Below are positions 2,095-10,154 of a DNA stretch of 64,000 nt, piece after piece. Position 1 is the stretch's first letter. Every line of letters begins with the position of its first letter. The notes beneath the pieces are model-generated. The model was not told the DNA's origin. It saw only the letters and a list, made by a program, of their open reading frames with translations, and did not search any database. Where the stretch lies: NCBI RefSeq assembly GCF_029433105.1, contig NZ_JARNTW010000009.1, positions 124,001 through 188,000 of the forward strand. The letters run 5' to 3'. The position numbers and the translations under genes were made by a program. The stretch is from Runella sp. MFBS21 (GTDB lineage: Bacteria; Bacteroidota; Bacteroidia; Cytophagales; Spirosomataceae).

Positions 2095-2132
2095 ATAAAA
2101 TAATAAAAGCGGTCAATCGACCGCTTTTATTA
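2095..2132 (-). terminator. Rho-independent terminator of grpE-dnaJ
   Basis: A perfect 14 bp inverted repeat (2101-2114 with 2119-2132, loop aatc) is followed by a T-rich stretch when read on the minus strand. It overlaps the dnaJ stop codon, so the hairpin begins at the end of the gene. Confidence 0.85.
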
Positions 2133-3281
2133 ATGGAAGAAATCTTTCATCTTCTCAAAAAAACCTTTCTCATTTTTACCCGGCTTGGGTTGAAAATTAG
2201 GTGAGTTTCGAAGTTTTTCAAGCAAGGCTCGCTCGTCGTTATTGAGTTGCTTTGGTGTCCAGATATTAATATGTATCAATTGATCGCCTCTGCCGTAGCC
2301 GTTGAGTTCTTTGATTCCTTTTCCTTTAAGTCTTAATATTTTACCACCTTGTACACCCGCTTCAATAGGCACTCGCGCTTTACCGTCGAGGGTAGGAACT
2401 TCTACACTGGTACCCAGGGCCGCATCTACAAAATTAAGATGGAGGTCATACACTAGATTGTTGCCGTCGCGTTTGAGGTTTTCGTCCTCTTCTTCTTCTA
2501 CCACAATCAGCAAGTCGCCTGCTACACCACCGCGAGGGGGCACATTGCCTTTGCCACTCATAGAGAGCTGCATGCCGTCGGCTACGCCACCGGGGATTTT
2601 GATGCTGATTACATCTTCTTCCAACACACGTCCTTCGCCTGCGCAGACTTCACAGCGCTCAGATACAATTTTACCTTCGCCATTACAAGTAGGACAGGTG
2701 CTAGTTGAGACCATTTGGCCGAGCATGGTACTTACTACTTTACGTACTTGCCCGTTACCATTACAAGTATGACAAGTTTTGAGGGAGGCTCCATTTTTAG
2801 AGCCATTTCCTCCGCAAGTGTTACAGCTTACGTATCTTTTTACTTTGATTTTCTTTTCTGCACCTTCGGCTACTTCGCGGAGGTCAAGTTTGAGTTTGAT
2901 TCTCAAATCGGTACCTCGTCTGACGCGCCTTCCACCTCCACCGCCATTGCCAAAAATATCTCCAAAAGGCGAAGAATCACCAAATATGTCGCCAAATTGA
3001 GAGAAAATATCGTTGATGTCAAATCCTTGACCACCGCCAAAACCACCATTACCACCCATGCCAGCATGGCCAAATTGGTCGTAACGTTTGCGTTTTTCGG
3101 CATCGCTCAATACGCCATAGGCTTCGGCTGCTTCTTTAAATTTTTCTTCAGCCGAAGGGTCATCAGGGTTTTTGTCGGGGTGATATTTGATGGCTAGCTT
3201 ACGATAAGCTTTCTTTATCTCATCGTCCGATGCTGATTTGCCGACGCCAAGGACTTCATAATAATCTCTTTTCTGTGCCAT
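2130..3281 (-). CDS. dnaJ: molecular chaperone DnaJ
   Basis: This is a full-length type I Hsp40 of 383 residues. The J domain (residues 1-70) carries the HPD triad (YHPDKNP) that stimulates the DnaK ATPase. A Gly/Phe-rich linker follows (about 75-120, with GFGGGQGFD and GNGGGGG). Then come four CxxCxGxG zinc-binding repeats ([32 protein letters not shown]) and the C-terminal substrate-binding domains. It acts in the cytoplasm, delivering unfolded clients to DnaK. It lies 58 bp downstream of grpE and is very probably in the same operon; dnaK itself is not in the window. Confidence 0.98.
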
Positions 3282-3339: not shown

Positions 3340-3885
3340 TTAACTTCCTACTACGACTTTAGCGTAGCGGATTACTTTTTCATTTAAAAAATATCCTTTT
3401 TCGACTTCGTCAATTACTTTTCCTTTCAGGTCTTCACTTGGAGCTGGGAATTGGGTAATTGACTCATGCAAATCAGCATCAAATACTTCACCTTTAGAGG
3501 TCATGGGTTTGAGGCCTTTGCTTTCAAGCGTTTTTGAAAACTTATTGAAAATCAGACCCACGCCTTCTTTGAGAGGAGCGATGTCGGTAGTAGTTTCAAA
3601 TGAGGCCATAGCACGTTCGAAATCATCCACTACGGGCAAAACAGCCTTCATCAGATCTTCATTAGCACTTGAAATTAATTCTAATTTCTCTTTGGCAGTG
3701 CGGCGACGGAAGTTTTCGAAGTCGGCGTACAAACGCAAATATTTATTTTTTAACTCTGTAATTTCTGCTTCTAATTTTTCTGTAACCTTTTCTTCGCCTT
3801 CTTGGGCTATCTCAGGAGCAGCATTAGCTGCCAATTCGTCTTCTATGGGTGTGTCTTCTTGAATGTGTTGGTTATCGGTTGTCAT
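3340..3885 (-). CDS. grpE: nucleotide exchange factor GrpE
   Basis: The 181-residue protein has an acidic, disordered N-terminus, then a long helix (EKLEAEITELKNKYLRLYADFENFRRR). The signature YLRLYADFENFRRRT is followed by the C-terminal beta domain (GEVFDADLHESITQFPAPSED). GrpE releases ADP from DnaK and so completes the chaperone cycle with DnaJ, encoded next. It starts at the ATG at 3885. An imperfect palindrome at 3958-3972 lies upstream and may be part of heat-shock control. Confidence 0.97.
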   Translation of the reverse strand: MTTDNQHIQEDTPIEDELAANAAPEIAQEGEEKVTEKLEAEITELKNKYLRLYADFENFRRRTAKEKLELISSANEDLMKAVLPVVDDFERAMASFETTTDIAPLKEGVGLIFNKFSKTLESKGLKPMTSKGEVFDADLHESITQFPAPSEDLKGKVIDEVEKGYFLNEKVIRYAKVVVGS

Positions 3886-3972: not shown

Positions 3973-4098
3973 AAACTCCCTTTTGAAGAAGTGGTAAAGA
4001 AGCCTTTTTGACGAAATTTTTATGAAAGAGATTGTAACTTTTTTGTGAATGTCCGTCTAATATAAATAGTGATAAATATGATTTTTAATGGTTTTTTT

Positions 4099-4239
4099 AT
4101 GATGAAAAAAAATATACCTTCCCCTCGTCGCATCTATTCCAAACCAACCCTTCTGAAAATAGGGAAAGTTGCAAATCTTACAAAAAAGACTGGCAGTCAA
4201 TTTGATATGTTGACTAGTACTAATTCTTTTACCCCCTGA
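4099..4239 (+). CDS. putative lasso-type RiPP precursor peptide
   Basis: This short ORF encodes 46 residues from the ATG at 4099; an ATG at 4102 and one at 4078 are in the same frame. Residues 13-28 fit the lasso leader pattern YxxPxLxxxG(x)5T exactly: Tyr13, Pro16, Leu18, Gly22, Thr28. In lasso peptides the conserved Thr is the penultimate leader residue, so the core would be KTGSQFDMLTSTNSFTP. Asp36 would then be core position 7, able to close a seven-residue macrolactam ring. A Lys at core position 1 is unusual, so the cleavage site is uncertain. A cyclase homologue lies 1.2 kb downstream on the same strand. No peptidase or leader-binding gene is near. The leader match is seen directly; the product is inferred. 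Confidence 0.62.
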   Translation: MMKKNIPSPRRIYSKPTLLKIGKVANLTKKTGSQFDMLTSTNSFTP

Positions 4240-4299: not shown

Positions 4300-5409
4300 A
4301 TGAAAAAAATATACCTTTTTGTGCTATTCTTAGGTGTCTTATTTAAAGCTGCCTCCCAAGGTGGCGGGATTTTGCAGACCTTTGATGGAGCAGCAGCATT
4401 GCCGACAGGATGGAGCACTACAGCAACGTCTAATGCCCTAGTAGAAAATGCGTCTAATAGCAATGGGTATACTATTCCTACTACAAACCCTACGGTGAGT
4501 GCTTCTGGTACCAACAACTTATCAATGAGAAACTGCGGTAGCGCGACAGTGTCGATTACCACGGTAGCTTTTGACCTAACGGGCAAGAGCAATGTCATAG
4601 TGGGATTTGGTCGGCGGCGTACAAGTACTTTCGCCCCCACAGTATCGTTTTCGGTTAGTGTAGATGGCGGGACTACTTTTAGCACGTTAAACAGTGATGT
4701 GTCATCAGCGGCCAATACTACATGGGCTTTTTTGGGGCCGATTTCGGTTCCTACTGCGGCCAATCAAGCAAGTGTGATTTTTAGGTTTGATTATGTATCT
4801 ACAAGCTCAACTTCCTGCACAGGAAGCTCGGCCAATTTTCGAATCGATGATTTTATTGTGGGTTGGAATGATGTATTTCCTGTAAAACTGACGTTTTTCA
4901 AAGCAGAAGCACGTAGCACAGGTGTAGAATTGTCATGGCAAACTTCGGAAGAAATAAGCAATCAACGTTTTGAGATTGAGCGTAGTCTTGATGCTAAATC
5001 CTTTGAAAAAATAGGCGCGATAGAAGGAAAAGGTACGATATCAATTGCCCAGAATTATTCTTTTTTGGATAGCAGTCCCCTACAAGGATTGAATTATTAT
5101 CGATTAAAACAAGTGGATTTTGATGGCAAATACAGCTACAGTGTTATCAGAGATATACGCGCCAAAGGTGAAGAGTCTAGTTTTCGAGTATATCCCAATC
5201 CTGCCACGAATGAACTGAAAATAGAGGTGCCACAGCAGGAAGAAATAAGCTATGGAGAACTTCTCGACTTGACGGGCAGGATAGTGAAGCGTTATGGAGC
5301 AGGCTCAGACAAAGTCTCTATAGGTGACATCAGGCCGGGCGTCTATATCCTGAAGATTAAAACTCAAACGGGAGCTAGGTATCAGCAACGAATCATAAAA
5401 ATAAATTAA
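4300..5409 (+). CDS. secreted protein with type IX secretion (type A) sorting domain
   Basis: The 369-residue protein begins with a signal peptide (MKKIYLFVLFLGVLFKAASQ). Residues 25-190 form a beta-rich region of the choice-of-anchor type (TFDGAAALPTGWS, FRIDDFIVGW). Next is a fibronectin-like segment (VELSWQTSEEISNQRFEIER, about 205-285). The C-terminal 75 residues are a Por secretion tail (VYPNPATNELKIEV, GVYILKI), which directs export through the type IX system and attachment to the cell surface. No catalytic motif is visible. It sits between the lasso-like peptide gene and the cyclase homologue, 22 bp before the latter, so it may be cotranscribed with it; its role there is unknown. Confidence 0.8.
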   Translation: MKKIYLFVLFLGVLFKAASQGGGILQTFDGAAALPTGWSTTATSNALVENASNSNGYTIPTTNPTVSASGTNNLSMRNCGSATVSITTVAFDLTGKSNVIVGFGRRRTSTFAPTVSFSVSVDGGTTFSTLNSDVSSAANTTWAFLGPISVPTAANQASVIFRFDYVSTSSTSCTGSSANFRIDDFIVGWNDVFPVKLTFFKAEARSTGVELSWQTSEEISNQRFEIERSLDAKSFEKIGAIEGKGTISIAQNYSFLDSSPLQGLNYYRLKQVDFDGKYSYSVIRDIRAKGEESSFRVYPNPATNELKIEVPQQEEISYGELLDLTGRIVKRYGAGSDKVSIGDIRPGVYILKIKTQTGARYQQRIIKIN

Positions 5410-5431: not shown

Positions 5432-7381
5432 ATGTCTGGAATCTGTGGTATTATTTATTTTGAGAAACAACCGCAGCCGCATGATCTCCTCAGCATGGTA
5501 CTTTCTATGAAGCATCGCGCGAAAGATGGAGTTTTTGAAAAAACAACCGAAAATGCAGCAGTCGCTTATCTAAAACTTAATGTATCTGACTTATCAAAAA
5601 TACAAACGGGACCTCTTGAAACGACAGAAGGGATACTGGTAGTGGCAGATGCTCGGCTTGATAATCGCGATACTTTGCTCAAAACCTTTTTTGAAGGAGA
5701 CCTTCAAAAATTACGTGATTCAGTCAGCAATACAGCGCTCATTTTGGCTGCTTACGAATTTTGGGGAGAAGATTTACTTTTTCATTTGATTGGCGATTTT
5801 GCCTTTGTGATTTGGGACAAATCTCGGCAAAAAATCATTTGTGGACGAGACCACGTAGCTGCGCGTCCTTTGTATTATCATTATTTGGAGGGTGAATATT
5901 TTGCGTTTGCGTCTGAAGTTAAAGCCTTATTGACGTTGCCTAACGTTCAAATCAGGCCTTCATTCGAAAAAATACACGAATATGTCTCGTGGAAAGCGCA
6001 TCGTCAACCTTATCAACCTACTTCTTTTTATGAAGGGATTAGTGCAGTACAGCCTGCGCATGTGTTGAGGGTTGAGGCTGAAAAATGTGATTCACGGCAG
6101 TGCTGGGATTTGGATTTGAAACGTTTTGAAAATTTGAGGGGTGATCAAGAATATTTTGATGTCTTTAGAGCTACTTTTTTTGAGGCTGTAAGATGCCGTA
6201 TAGACAGTTACGGGCTATTAGCCGCGCATTTGAGTGGAGGGTTAGACTCTTCTTCTATTTGTACAGTGGTAAATTTGGTGTTTGGTCAACCGCTCTTGAC
6301 GCAGTACTTCGATATCGGAGGGAATGCGGATGAAAAAGAATTTGTGGATGAAATGTTAGCAAATCACGATTATCATCATCAAAATATCCTTCCTACCATA
6401 GATTGGAACGAAGCAAGTCGGAATTTGTCTAATATACTAGGACATCCCAATTACTTCTTAGTACTACCAAGTTATATCGTTACATCATCTGAAGCCTTGG
6501 CTGCCTGTCAATGCACGCTTTTACTTACAGGACATGATGGTGATAGCGTAGTAGGATACGGACATGACTATCCTCTTTCTTTGTTGGAAACTCATCAAAA
6601 AAAAGAGTTTGTAGAGCTCATGCGAGAGTATGCCTTGGTAGCAGATTTTGGGTCACAAATCAAGGAGTGGAATGAGTGGTCTTTTCTTCAAAAGTATCGA
6701 TTCCTTGTAAAGATTTATTTCAAACAGCATATCAAGAAAAAATGGTATAAGAAGCATTACGGACTAGCAATCTTGGAAATATTGCGTTGGAGTTTTACTT
6801 TGAAATTTGTTCCATTAGATGTTAATGCGCGTATCTTAAAGAAGAAAAATAGTTTTTCGCCAAATTCTGGCCCAAAAGAAATCAACACATCGTATGGTTT
6901 TTCTGAGGTTGAAAATCAATTAGTGGGGGATATTTTGCATGAAGCAATGCTTCAAAGCATTGAAGAATTTGAGCAAATTGGGGCTTGGTATGGCTATGAA
7001 GTAGTACATCCGTTTTATGACAAACGGCTGATAGAATTATGTTTAGCTATTCCTAATCGTCTCAAGTTTGACCGGGGCTATCGAAGAGGGCCACTCAGAC
7101 ATGCCATGGAAGATTTTTTGCCCGACAAAGTGAGACTACGTACCAGTAAAGTGACAATGAATGAGTCAGTAGAGAATCAATTAAACGCAGTAAGAACGGA
7201 AGTGGTGGAATTGCTCATAAAAGCTCAAAAGGGATTGCCTTCATTTTTTGACGAAGCACAAAGTCAGACCTTAACCCCTTATTTTGAAAAGGCAATTCAA
7301 GTGTTTTCAAATCCTGAATGTACGGGACTTGCACGATTTGTGCGAGAAGTAAACCTTGCCCAATGGTTGTTGTCTATCTAA
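5432..7381 (+). CDS. asparagine synthetase-like protein, probable lasso peptide cyclase type
   Basis: The 649-residue protein has an N-terminal class II amidotransferase fold (1-210) and a C-terminal ATP-pyrophosphatase domain with the PP-loop SGGLDSS at 268-274. True glutamine-dependent asparagine synthetases start MCGI, with Cys2 as nucleophile. Here the start is MSGICGI, with Ser2, so glutaminase activity is not expected. Loss of that Cys is typical of lasso cyclases, which adenylate an Asp or Glu side chain and join it to the core N-terminus. A lasso-like precursor gene lies upstream (4099). The last 8 bp overlap the convergent LptD gene. A role in another amide-forming pathway is possible, because no B protein or peptidase gene is adjacent. 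Confidence 0.72.
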   Translation: MSGICGIIYFEKQPQPHDLLSMVLSMKHRAKDGVFEKTTENAAVAYLKLNVSDLSKIQTGPLETTEGILVVADARLDNRDTLLKTFFEGDLQKLRDSVSNTALILAAYEFWGEDLLFHLIGDFAFVIWDKSRQKIICGRDHVAARPLYYHYLEGEYFAFASEVKALLTLPNVQIRPSFEKIHEYVSWKAHRQPYQPTSFYEGISAVQPAHVLRVEAEKCDSRQCWDLDLKRFENLRGDQEYFDVFRATFFEAVRCRIDSYGLLAAHLSGGLDSSSICTVVNLVFGQPLLTQYFDIGGNADEKEFVDEMLANHDYHHQNILPTIDWNEASRNLSNILGHPNYFLVLPSYIVTSSEALAACQCTLLLTGHDGDSVVGYGHDYPLSLLETHQKKEFVELMREYALVADFGSQIKEWNEWSFLQKYRFLVKIYFKQHIKKKWYKKHYGLAILEILRWSFTLKFVPLDVNARILKKKNSFSPNSGPKEINTSYGFSEVENQLVGDILHEAMLQSIEEFEQIGAWYGYEVVHPFYDKRLIELCLAIPNRLKFDRGYRRGPLRHAMEDFLPDKVRLRTSKVTMNESVENQLNAVRTEVVELLIKAQKGLPSFFDEAQSQTLTPYFEKAIQVFSNPECTGLARFVREVNLAQWLLSI

Positions 7382-10154
7382 AACCTCCTTGGTCGTAGAA
7401 AGTACGGCGGCGCGAAAGCTTCAAATCGCGCAAAAGGGCCGATTTGGCACGGATTTCAAAACTATAATTATTTGACCTAAATCCTGAACCTGCATACGGT
7501 GTCCAGTTAAATGACATTTCCCAGCAGTGTAGATCGCGCGTGATACCGATATTAGTAATAGAAGGCGCTTTGGCTACAATATCCAAACCTGTATCAAATA
7601 CAAATTTCCATTTGGGCGTAAGACTAAAATCACCATTCATACGCAGAGTTTGGATTGTAGTTCCTGCTGATAGCCCTTGGCGCGAATAGTTGAAACTATA
7701 ACTCATGCTCAATGTCCACGGGATATTGAAATCGATATAAGCATCAGGATTGGCATTGATCATTCGTTGTTGCTCTTCGGTATTGGGCGTATTTGCTTTT
7801 TTAGGTTTATCGGCTCCTTTAGGGGCAAACCTTTTGGAGAGAGCTACGTTGACATTGCTCAGGCGTGCCAAACCTTGATTTTGTGTGAAAGACCAACGAT
7901 TGATTTTACGCCCTGTAGTACCATAAAGTTCATCTTTTACGTAAGCATAGGGATCAAAGTTGGCAGAAAGGTTGAAGTTCAAATCTTTAAAAATGCGAGC
8001 ATTGGTATTGAAACTAATATCCGACATTTTTAAAGAGTCTGCCATCAGATTATAAGAGCCATTAAAGCTAAAGTTGTCGAGGATGTTTATTTTTTCAAAT
8101 TGCTTACCACTTGAGTCGGATTTAGGGCGTACTTTGGCTTCAAAGAGGTTGTTGAGACTCCACGTAATGCCTGCGGCTGAAGTACCAGAAGTGGTAAGAT
8201 TTCCTCCAATAGTTCGGTACCTATTAAGATACCTTACATCGCCGCGTTCGTTTACGGTAAGACGTTGGAGTAGGTTAGATTGGTCGGGCACATAGCTAAA
8301 GCTTGCTGAAGGAATGAGGGTATGACGAATTGCCTCCAGACGTTTACCTCCTACCCGAAACATCCCATAGATGCGAGTGTTCATACTTGCACTAAACGAG
8401 ACATTATTGGCAAAATAAAAACCATTCAGGGTATCTACCCGAACTTGGTTATTACCTACATATTCATAATTGAATTTTTTGGTAAACGTTTCACCCGAAA
8501 GTGAAATACCTGGGGTAATATTGATGTATTTGAAAAGCTTGATGTTGGGTAAAGAAATAGGAAGTGAAAAGCGACCAGTGAATTGTGAGTTTTTAATAAA
8601 TTCAGGAAGGTTTTGGGCATTAAGAGCATAGGTAGTAGGAGCCCCCGATTCGGGAGTAACTACGGTAGGAGCATTGGCTAGGGTAAACCCTAAACGAGAA
8701 CTAGAAGTATCGGCATACACAATGGTATTGTTGGCAGTAATACCCCCACTAAAATCCAGACCCAATCGAAAACTCTCATACCAAGCACCCGTACCGCCTT
8801 TGAGGGCAAAGGGGGCAAGTTGGTTAATTCCAAAGTTGAAATCAATTCCCGCATCTATCGAACCAGGGTCTGTTTGCTTACCAGTAGAATCGACTTTAGA
8901 GCGGTCAGGAAAACGTTGATTCACGCGTACGCTAGTTCCCATACGGGCAAACTGCCCAAATTGCTTGGTATATTGAACCGACGAACTCGCTACGTTTTGG
9001 ATATATTTCTGCGTATTAAACTCATTAAACTGATTGAAACTATTGCTACCTAGGTTGACCGAAGCACCAAAACTTGAAGTACCGCGTGGTACGGGCGAGT
9101 GAGTCCAGTTGAGACTAAAATCATTACGTGGTTGATTCAAGATTTTGATTTCATTGCCCTGAACATTGCGATTGAAGCGTAAGTTGAAATTTCCACTATA
9201 GCGATATTTTACGGCATAGGGCATCGCTACTCCAATCCCCCAACTCCCGCGTGAGTAAATCTGACCAGTGAGACTCAAATTGATTTTTTCACTAATGGCA
9301 AAATAATACCCGCCATCTCTCAAATAATATCCGCGTCCGTTGGGTTCTTCGCCATAAGTAGGCATCAAAATACCAGAGGTGCCTATTTCTTTTTTCTTAG
9401 GAACGGGGAAAAAACCAAAAGGCAACCCTACAAATGGAAGAGGTACATCTGAAACTACCAAATGGAATGGCCCCGAGATGACTTGTTTTTCGGGAATGAC
9501 TTTGATTTTTTTTGCAGCAATGTGGAAGTGAGGCTGGGCAAGGTTACAGGTAGTATAAATCGAGCCGCGAATATACATGTTGTTTTCTTCGTCTTTTTTG
9601 ACGGTCGTACCCCGTATGTTGCCGTCGCCTTGCTGCGTAACTACCCCCTTGATAAACCCTTTTTTACTTTTAAAATTATAGCGAATTTCTTTGGTATCGT
9701 ATTTTTCTCCATTGTCCTGAAATATAGGCTGTCCAATCCACTTTCGAGAAGTCGAATCATAATTTCCCCGGGCAAATACTTCATTGGTTTTCCAATTCAG
9801 ACGGATATAATCAGCCTCCAAAATGATAGCTCCATAAGTCACTTTGGCTGTGCCATAGAGGTGTACTTCCTGCTCGCCCGGGTCCATCACAGTAGAGTCT
9901 TGGGCGCTATATTGTACGGTATTTTTGAGGTCGCTTTCTGCTTCTAGTGTATCAGATTTGGTACTGTCAGAAGGTATAGGAAGTACCGAAGGAATAGTGG
10001 GAGTCGCTCGTTTGATAGAGTCCAAACGAACGGGGTTCGTAATCTTACGAGGAGTTAATGTTTGGGCGAAAGACCCAAAATGGACTCCTAACACAAGAAG
10101 CCAAAGTAGCCATTTCGCGGCTTTTTCAAGAACTTTTAATTTTTTCAAAGACAA
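7374..10154 (-). CDS. lptD: LptD-like LPS assembly outer-membrane protein
   Basis: The 926-residue protein has a signal peptide (LLWLLVLGVHFGSFAQ) and an OstA/LptA-like beta-jellyroll at about 95-215 (VHLYGTAKVTYGAIILEADYIRLNWKT is the entry). A long beta-barrel region ends the protein. This is the layout of LptD, which inserts lipopolysaccharide into the outer leaflet, and of its Bacteroidota relatives. There is no ATG at the N-terminus: TTG at 10154 is the likely start, just downstream of a TACTTTTG -7 box at 10182-10175. Its 3' end overlaps the convergent cyclase-like gene by 8 bp. Confidence 0.85.
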   Translation of the reverse strand: MSLKKLKVLEKAAKWLLWLLVLGVHFGSFAQTLTPRKITNPVRLDSIKRATPTIPSVLPIPSDSTKSDTLEAESDLKNTVQYSAQDSTVMDPGEQEVHLYGTAKVTYGAIILEADYIRLNWKTNEVFARGNYDSTSRKWIGQPIFQDNGEKYDTKEIRYNFKSKKGFIKGVVTQQGDGNIRGTTVKKDEENNMYIRGSIYTTCNLAQPHFHIAAKKIKVIPEKQVISGPFHLVVSDVPLPFVGLPFGFFPVPKKKEIGTSGILMPTYGEEPNGRGYYLRDGGYYFAISEKINLSLTGQIYSRGSWGIGVAMPYAVKYRYSGNFNLRFNRNVQGNEIKILNQPRNDFSLNWTHSPVPRGTSSFGASVNLGSNSFNQFNEFNTQKYIQNVASSSVQYTKQFGQFARMGTSVRVNQRFPDRSKVDSTGKQTDPGSIDAGIDFNFGINQLAPFALKGGTGAWYESFRLGLDFSGGITANNTIVYADTSSSRLGFTLANAPTVVTPESGAPTTYALNAQNLPEFIKNSQFTGRFSLPISLPNIKLFKYINITPGISLSGETFTKKFNYEYVGNNQVRVDTLNGFYFANNVSFSASMNTRIYGMFRVGGKRLEAIRHTLIPSASFSYVPDQSNLLQRLTVNERGDVRYLNRYRTIGGNLTTSGTSAAGITWSLNNLFEAKVRPKSDSSGKQFEKINILDNFSFNGSYNLMADSLKMSDISFNTNARIFKDLNFNLSANFDPYAYVKDELYGTTGRKINRWSFTQNQGLARLSNVNVALSKRFAPKGADKPKKANTPNTEEQQRMINANPDAYIDFNIPWTLSMSYSFNYSRQGLSAGTTIQTLRMNGDFSLTPKWKFVFDTGLDIVAKAPSITNIGITRDLHCWEMSFNWTPYAGSGFRSNNYSFEIRAKSALLRDLKLSRRRTFYDQGGFR

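Follow-up and report, generated by a model that had tools for sequence, protein, structure and literature searches.

The 46-codon open reading frame (ORF) at positions 4099–4239 of the window, the 64,000-nucleotide stretch of the Runella sp. MFBS21 genome analysed here, is, judging by its sequence, a real gene that codes for a lasso-type precursor peptide. Our overall reading, which we regard as probable, makes this peptide the precursor (A) in a dispersed lasso-type RiPP pathway that is functionally coupled to type IX secretion (T9SS). The genes concerned are conserved and lie scattered, and precursors of this kind are linked to genes for T9SS cargo proteins and for PorU2.

The frame runs from an ATG at 4099 to a TGA at 4239, and its product, MMKKNIPSPRRIYSKPTLLKIGKVANLTKKTGSQFDMLTSTNSFTP, carries Tyr13, Pro16, Leu18, Gly22 and Thr28 exactly where the original prediction, made from the DNA letters alone, had placed the five leader positions of lasso peptides. 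The search against lasso leader models that it proposed returned a marginal match, NF033521 (NCBIfam lasso_leader_L3) scoring 19.1 bits, where the curated cut-off is 19, over an alignment that spans residues 13–33. Across all 7.9 Mb of the genome that model gave no other match at E≤1. It lacks sensitivity, however: the precursor of the second lasso cluster, on contig C11, was missed in the same search. Together with the conservation of the ORF and of its frame in relatives, described below, the leader match supports the lasso-type reading. A longer ORF starting from the GTG at 4069 was rejected because its leader score falls to 18.5, under the cut-off. A chance ORF is ruled out by conservation and selection, and a known RNA element in place of the gene was discarded, there being no Rfam match over the gathering score between 3000 and 8000. 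Scans for sigma-70-like promoters gave 13 candidates vs 9.3 (s.d. 3.1) in shuffled sequence, and for terminators 4 vs 3.1 (s.d. 1.7).

The passages on lasso precursors that we drew on place a Thr at position −2, and by this general rule the putative cut would fall after Lys29, with Thr28 at −2. An acidic residue seven to nine positions into the core is then present as Asp at core position 7, as had been predicted. A cut directly after Thr28 would instead give an eight-residue ring starting at Lys29, which would be less usual.

Table 1. Features of the precursor locus, in window coordinates.
Feature	Position	Strand	Remarks
Lasso-type precursor peptide gene (A)	4099..4239	+	46 aa; leader model, conservation, selection
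Leader M1–K29	4099..4185	+	Y13, P16, L18, G22, T28
Predicted core KTGSQFDMLTSTNSFTP	4186..4236	+	K30 = core 1, D36 = core 7 (codon 4204–4206)
T9SS type A sorting-domain secreted protein (cargo)	4300..5409	+	369 aa; TIGR04183 41.8 bits, cut-off 23; PF18962
Asparagine-synthetase-like lasso cyclase (C)	5432..7381	+	649 aa, SGGLDSSS motif; NF033535, PF00733, PF13537
grpE, conserved left flank	3340..3885	-	PF01025
dnaJ, beyond grpE	2130–3281		PF00226/PF01556
LptD-like gene, conserved right flank	7374..10154	-	PF19838 LptD_2, 417 bits

The T9SS cargo gene starts 60 bases 3' of the precursor ORF on the same strand, and the cyclase gene that the original prediction had hoped for lies 1.2 kb 3' of the ORF. 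The cyclase scores 367 bits with the lasso cyclase model NF033535, under the model cut-off of 525, a value reached in neither of the two Runella genomes searched (the window strain and R. zeae). NF033535 is nevertheless its best family, the score vs asparagine synthase being 181 bits. The cyclase and LptD-like genes converge, with an 8-base overlap of their stop ends (7374–7381), and R. zeae has the same layout (L009, 11943–11950). No gene for a B1 or B2 protein is present at the window locus.

The trio of A, T9SS cargo and C occupies the same site in R. zeae, R. aurantiaca and two further genomes (G004 and G007), with grpE-dnaJ kept on one side and the LptD-like gene on the other; the suggested search for the same ORF beside a cyclase gene in relatives thus found it in both named species. 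Identity of the cyclase to that of the window is 92% in R. zeae and 46% in R. aurantiaca, and seven of 13 Runella genomes, the window strain's own counted, hold full-length relatives (43–100% identity). Both R. zeae and R. aurantiaca preserve the precursor frame despite divergence of the surrounding DNA, and the Runella precursors retain the leader residues Y, P, L, G and T and a core of the type K.GSQFD.LT. Lys30 and Asp36 are invariant and the frame is intact in all 13 aligned sequences, a set that includes the window and in which some members differ very little. When the window strain is compared with R. zeae, the dN/dS ratio is 0.13 for the precursor ORF, 0.13 for the cyclase and 0.19 for a second B1 gene beside PorU2 on contig C12, and the 17-codon core differs by five synonymous and no non-synonymous changes. 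These sequence comparisons demonstrate purifying selection on A, C and the second B1 between the two strains, and it is the frame, not the DNA alone, that is conserved. Whole-ORF dN/dS values of A in closer pairs of the R. aurantiaca type are 0.35–0.64, with few changes. The cyclase frame of one genome (G009) holds one in-frame TAA.

Two expectations attached to the ORF did not hold. Its length was thought to hide such a gene from gene callers, which is not always so, since eight relatives of 46–52 aa exist as predicted database proteins, one of these close relatives having a source name, which is 'hypothetical protein'. A Lys as the first core residue had been called unusual; it is instead the rule of the clade, being present in 106 of 117 distinct cores (Thr taken as −2; best 120 of 167 relatives, and others), and the idea that it is an oddity of the window strain was rejected. 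Asp7 accompanies it in 105 of these 106 Lys1 cores, six with Asp at both 5 and 7 being counted as Asp7, and the remaining one has Asn7. The 11 cores that start with Gly, Ala, Asp or Leu have Asp8 in ten cases and Asp9 in one; the core DAGSDTAD, with Asp at 5 and 8, was counted as Asp8. The 117 cores derive from 145 distinct peptide sequences, the window's own included, drawn from the best 120 of 167 matches, the eight close relatives (with some overlap) and 22 further peptides; cores met only in fetched loci were left out. As the search profiles contained both core types and the sequences are related, the pairings of Lys1 with Asp7 cannot be counted as independent events. The labels 'Spirosoma' type and 'Dyadobacter' type come from similar named database peptides.

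An ordinary α-amide ring of seven residues between Lys1 and Asp7 fits the sequence, and so does ring closure through the Lys1 side chain. By our own count the α-amide ring would have 22 atoms, one fewer than that of xanthomonin, which reportedly joins Gly1 to Glu7, unlike the Lys1–Asp7 pair predicted here. The side-chain ring would have 26 atoms vs 25 for an ordinary eight-residue Asp ring (own count); such closure would account for the pairing of Lys1 with Asp7 and of other first residues with Asp8 or Asp9, and, if it occurs, the Lys1 α-amine would be left free.

The remaining pathway genes lie elsewhere in the window genome. The sole B2 match is on contig C11 (PF13471; NF033537 83.1 bits, cut-off 33), and two PqqD-like B1 genes are found on contigs C11 and C12, both over the PF05402 cut-off and both under that of the lasso-specific NF033536 (60.6 and 60.7, cut-off 80). 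The C11 genes belong to a second lasso cluster (L002, 12348–18547), which has a precursor with core DAGSDTADVNGLMGMAMM, a cyclase, B1, B2, an HprK-like gene, a nucleotidyltransferase-like gene and a 354-aa protein without a family match; neither T9SS cargo nor PorU2 was among the members detected.

In R. zeae, whole-genome searches found one lasso cyclase, one PqqD protein (B1) and one B2, on three contigs. Their sites have different flanks, and none lies closer than 27 kb to a contig end: A, T9SS cargo and C stand at the grpE-lptD site, B1 adjoins PorU2, and B2, with an HprK-like gene and a PF14907 nucleotidyltransferase gene, occupies the site of the window strain's second cluster. With a single C, B1 and B2 that are unlinked, the R. 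zeae pathway must therefore act in trans, if it works. The orphan B1 is followed by another ORF and then by PorU2 both in the window strain (L145 on C12, 7363–11732) and in R. zeae (L144, 7458–11746). The R. zeae ORF has an internal start, MKNWWKKYS, that resembles the B2 start in L002, and from its sequence the ORF after the orphan B1 looks like a B2 gene replaced past its first codons. In two other lasso clusters, L148 (G007) and L147 (G011), the gap between B1 and HprK is only ~50 bases, and the B2 gene that relatives carry between them is thus absent; both genomes still have C and A in frame. The only B2 of G007 belongs to another system, and no B2 was found in the G011 genome, which is 83% complete. 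A further, diverged lasso-like system is seen in G007, G001 and G004 (L119, L120 and L121), with a PqqD-like protein starting MALFIRNNETISGQL or MAKFIRKNETISGQL, a cyclase-like protein of ~610 aa and an HprK-like protein.

Scattering is common in the family. Among 222 Spirosomataceae genomes, a PF13471 match is present in 97 of the 100 that are precursor-positive, the three without it being 80–83% complete, and in 23 of the 122 that are precursor-negative, 17 of these 23 matches being over the Pfam cut-off. An order-wide search of 390 genomes found precursors of the present type in 46, all Spirosomataceae. The matches listed gave 150 precursor places, three of them in genomes without a B2 over the Pfam cut-off, the level used for B2 in this survey. 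Only 24 of the other 147 places listed lie within 10 kb of B2, and 123 are farther away or on another contig; 50 of these 123 share a contig with B2, at distances from 26 kb to 7.3 Mb. The weaker precursor places were checked in part, and the precursor was confirmed in 39 of 40 fetched stretches, none being found in L195. Dispersal is not an effect of assembly, because genomes in a single contig show it too. In G188, A, B1, an HprK-like gene and C are at 6.44 Mb and the sole PF13471 match is at 7.94 Mb, and in G073 and G068 an A–C–PorU2 group stands ~600–700 kb away from B1–B2–HprK. Lasso genome mining usually seeks A, B and C side by side, so that systems dispersed in this way are easily missed.

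The precursors are linked to T9SS cargo genes. We compared 44 analyst-chosen loci, namely four Runella loci and the 40 fetched precursor stretches, 39 of which were taken around places far from a B2. Of the 150 places, these stretches cover 47, with 46 distant from B2 and one, L203, close to it. The 44 loci hold 50 precursors, 41 of the Lys1 type from eight genera and nine others. A T9SS cargo gene lies within 250 bases on the same strand in 39 of the 41 Lys1 cases and in none of the nine others, seven of which (Dyadobacter type) adjoin the cyclase instead. The two Lys1 loci scored as cargo-negative are L225, with a T9SS-matching ORF 65 bases away, and L217, with none. Across the 44 loci, T9SS cargo accounts for 40 of 61 precursor-adjacent ORFs of at least 100 aa vs 8 of 350 others, as counted with a T9SS profile built from two sequences. 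The 38 cargo proteins scanned, which were 37 of the 40 partners and the window's own, matched TIGR04183 in 35 cases and PF18962 in 26 (E≤0.001). Their passenger parts vary, with an ice-binding-like domain (PF11999) in 6 of 38, and several share an N-terminal stretch of the type ALFT.NGA.TN. One locus (L198, 6036–14325) has four tandem precursor–T9SS cargo pairs in one genome; three of its four precursors end in an identical core.

PorU2 is the second T9SS link. The proteins adjoining the orphan B1 of R. zeae and the C12 B1 of the window strain are both PorU2 (NF052324; 784 and 783 bits, respectively, cut-off 450), which NCBI names 'putative type IX secretion system sortase'. In a survey of 32 analyst-chosen genomes, 28 of them lasso-positive, 25 of these 28 carry a PorU2 at most 12 kb from a lasso gene, with ~0.9 copies expected by chance; none was found within that distance in G009, G059 and G217. 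Outside Runella, distances were measured to A and B2 places only, and pieces under 450 bits were left out of the count. No PorU2 frame of at least 1300 aa is near a lasso gene at 12 kb (0 of 14), vs 36 of 51 shorter frames, or 36 of 56 when five omitted split copies of the Dyadobacter type (G067, G072, G068, G073 and G106), all over the cut-off and all far, are added; the short frames far from lasso genes accordingly number 15, or 20. Within Runella, all nine lasso-positive genomes have short frames and none of the four lasso-negative ones does. A long PorU2-like protein (~1650 aa) occurs in G002, G003, G006 and other Runella, whether or not lasso genes are present. His and Cys at matching positions, which we take to be the C25 catalytic pair, are kept in the 11 short PorU2 proteins aligned and likewise in eight long ones. 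Three loci (L123, L240 and L241) have a compact form with PorU2 and C on one strand and B2, B1, A and T9SS cargo on the other, and L239 has its mirror image. The window trio and the B1–PorU2 pair look like scattered pieces of this compact form.

The proposed pathway would work as follows. A would be made from a transcript common to the cargo and cyclase genes; the PqqD-like B1, from either the C11 or the C12 copy, would grip the Y..P.L...G leader and hand the precursor to B2; and the B2 protease, of which the only copy found is that on C11, would cut near Thr28. The cyclase encoded in the window could then link the new N-terminal Lys30 to the side chain of Asp36, with threading of the ring presumed, and the product may act together with the neighbouring T9SS cargo and with the PorU2 encoded beside the C12 B1. 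Several observations count against this coupled pathway. A only just reaches its model cut-off, and C and B1 stay under theirs; B1 and B2 are absent from the locus, the G007 and G011 clusters are without B2, and the G009 cyclase carries a TAA. Whole-ORF dN/dS of A is higher in the closer R. aurantiaca-type pairs, the non-Lys1 precursors have no adjacent cargo gene, the C11 cluster shows neither cargo nor PorU2, and some PorU2-linked precursors have no Lys close to the start of the core. Three lasso-positive genomes have no PorU2 within 12 kb, and many of the short PorU2 frames lie far from any lasso gene.

That the peptide is the precursor of an ordinary lasso RiPP, and that cargo and PorU2 genes have only travelled with it and share no functional link, is arguable and yet, we consider, unlikely. 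The Dyadobacter-type precursors, seven of nine of which adjoin the cyclase with no adjacent cargo, speak for such a separation, as does the C11 cluster of the same genome, in which neither T9SS nor PorU2 genes were among the members detected; it accords poorly with cargo adjacency in nearly all Lys1 loci across the eight genera while the passenger domains change, with the four tandem precursor–cargo pairs in L198, and with the PorU2 linkage in all but three of the lasso-positive genomes surveyed. The scattering of the pathway pieces could also mark a decaying relic, in which A and C persist but, with no local B1 or B2, make no product. The B2-like internal start behind the R. zeae orphan B1, the stop codon in the G009 cyclase and the B2-less clusters of G007 and G011 all point that way. 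Against decay stand dN/dS values near 0.13 for A and C with no non-synonymous core change from R. zeae, a precursor frame intact in every aligned sequence, and the retention in R. zeae of one B1 and one B2, no other lasso cyclase having been found there; we therefore hold a relic to be very unlikely.

It is likewise highly improbable that the asparagine-synthetase-like enzyme forms no macrolactam on A and instead catalyses, for example, an amidation or an attachment to another molecule. The sub-threshold NF033535 score and an α-amide ring of only 22 atoms would suit such an activity, but the lasso cyclase family is still the best match by a score of 367 vs 181 bits, and the near-constant Asp7 of the Lys1 cores (105 of 106 in the set from the best 120 of 167 relatives, and others) argues for ring closure.

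As to what the coupled product would do, one tentative reading, drawn by analogy and in our estimate distinctly unlikely, is that the lasso-type peptide is a dedicated acceptor for PorU2, which would remove the sorting domain of the cargo and join the cargo to an amine of the peptide. This amine would come from the near-invariant Lys (K1, or in the Dyadobacter type the K2 of G1-K2), and the peptide would become the tail or anchor of a surface protein. In the passages available to us, PorU is described as the sortase of the Porphyromonas gingivalis T9SS (PMC4560394, PMC8545088), which attaches cargo to A-LPS in a proposed reaction where an amine acceptor replaces the sorting domain of the cargo (PMC4560394). 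In mutants without A-LPS, CTD proteins were attached to peptides from the medium, according to the same passages (PMC4560394), and this precedent may favour an acceptor role. Against it, PorU2-linked precursors without Lys near the core start are found in G001 (GMGSGGGD) and G004 (AMGSAGGD). The cargo and the peptide could equally be simply co-secreted or co-regulated. PorU2 resembles PorU in being a C25-type Cys/His enzyme, and differs from it in forming a separate NCBI family; in the portions of the literature that our search returned, no report of its acceptor was found.

The coupled system shares parts with known ones. The leader pattern Y..P.L...G....LT is common to the window precursor, the NF033521 family and named Spirosoma and Dyadobacter entries, and some Spirosoma and Dyadobacter relatives with the same core type bear the database name 'lasso RiPP family leader peptide-containing protein'. 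That label covers the leader only, and no entry that we met was annotated for a scattered pathway or for a link to T9SS or PorU2. For paeninodin, the parts of the report that we drew on describe a B1 that binds the leader and a B2 that cuts (PadeB1/B2, PMC5067487); the present system likewise has a separate PqqD-like B1 and transglutaminase-like B2, and unlike paeninodin it has A with C, B1 and B2 at separate loci. Kinase and nucleotidyltransferase genes occur in lasso clusters, as stated in passages of PMC8498205, and are matched here by the HprK-related protein (TIGR04352, under the cut-off) and the PF14907 nucleotidyltransferase. The seven-residue ring predicted for the window core has a parallel in xanthomonins I–III, to judge from a title cited in PMC7549694 that gives their macrolactam ring as seven residues. 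Metanodin, in the passages available (PMC12670498), has a precursor missed by antiSMASH, Asn at position 1, Thr at −2 and one gene cluster. The window precursor is like it in its non-standard first residue and Thr at −2, and unlike it in having Lys1, scattered genes and a T9SS partner, T9SS genes being absent from those metanodin passages. Our literature search found no report that pairs a lasso peptide with type IX secretion, and the Runella passages met in the lasso peptide literature concern a lanthipeptide.

For the biology of these bacteria, the T9SS linkage suggests a concrete role for PorU2 and a possible way for lasso-type peptides to be exported or displayed, and the Lys1 core offers a testable case of unusual ring chemistry.
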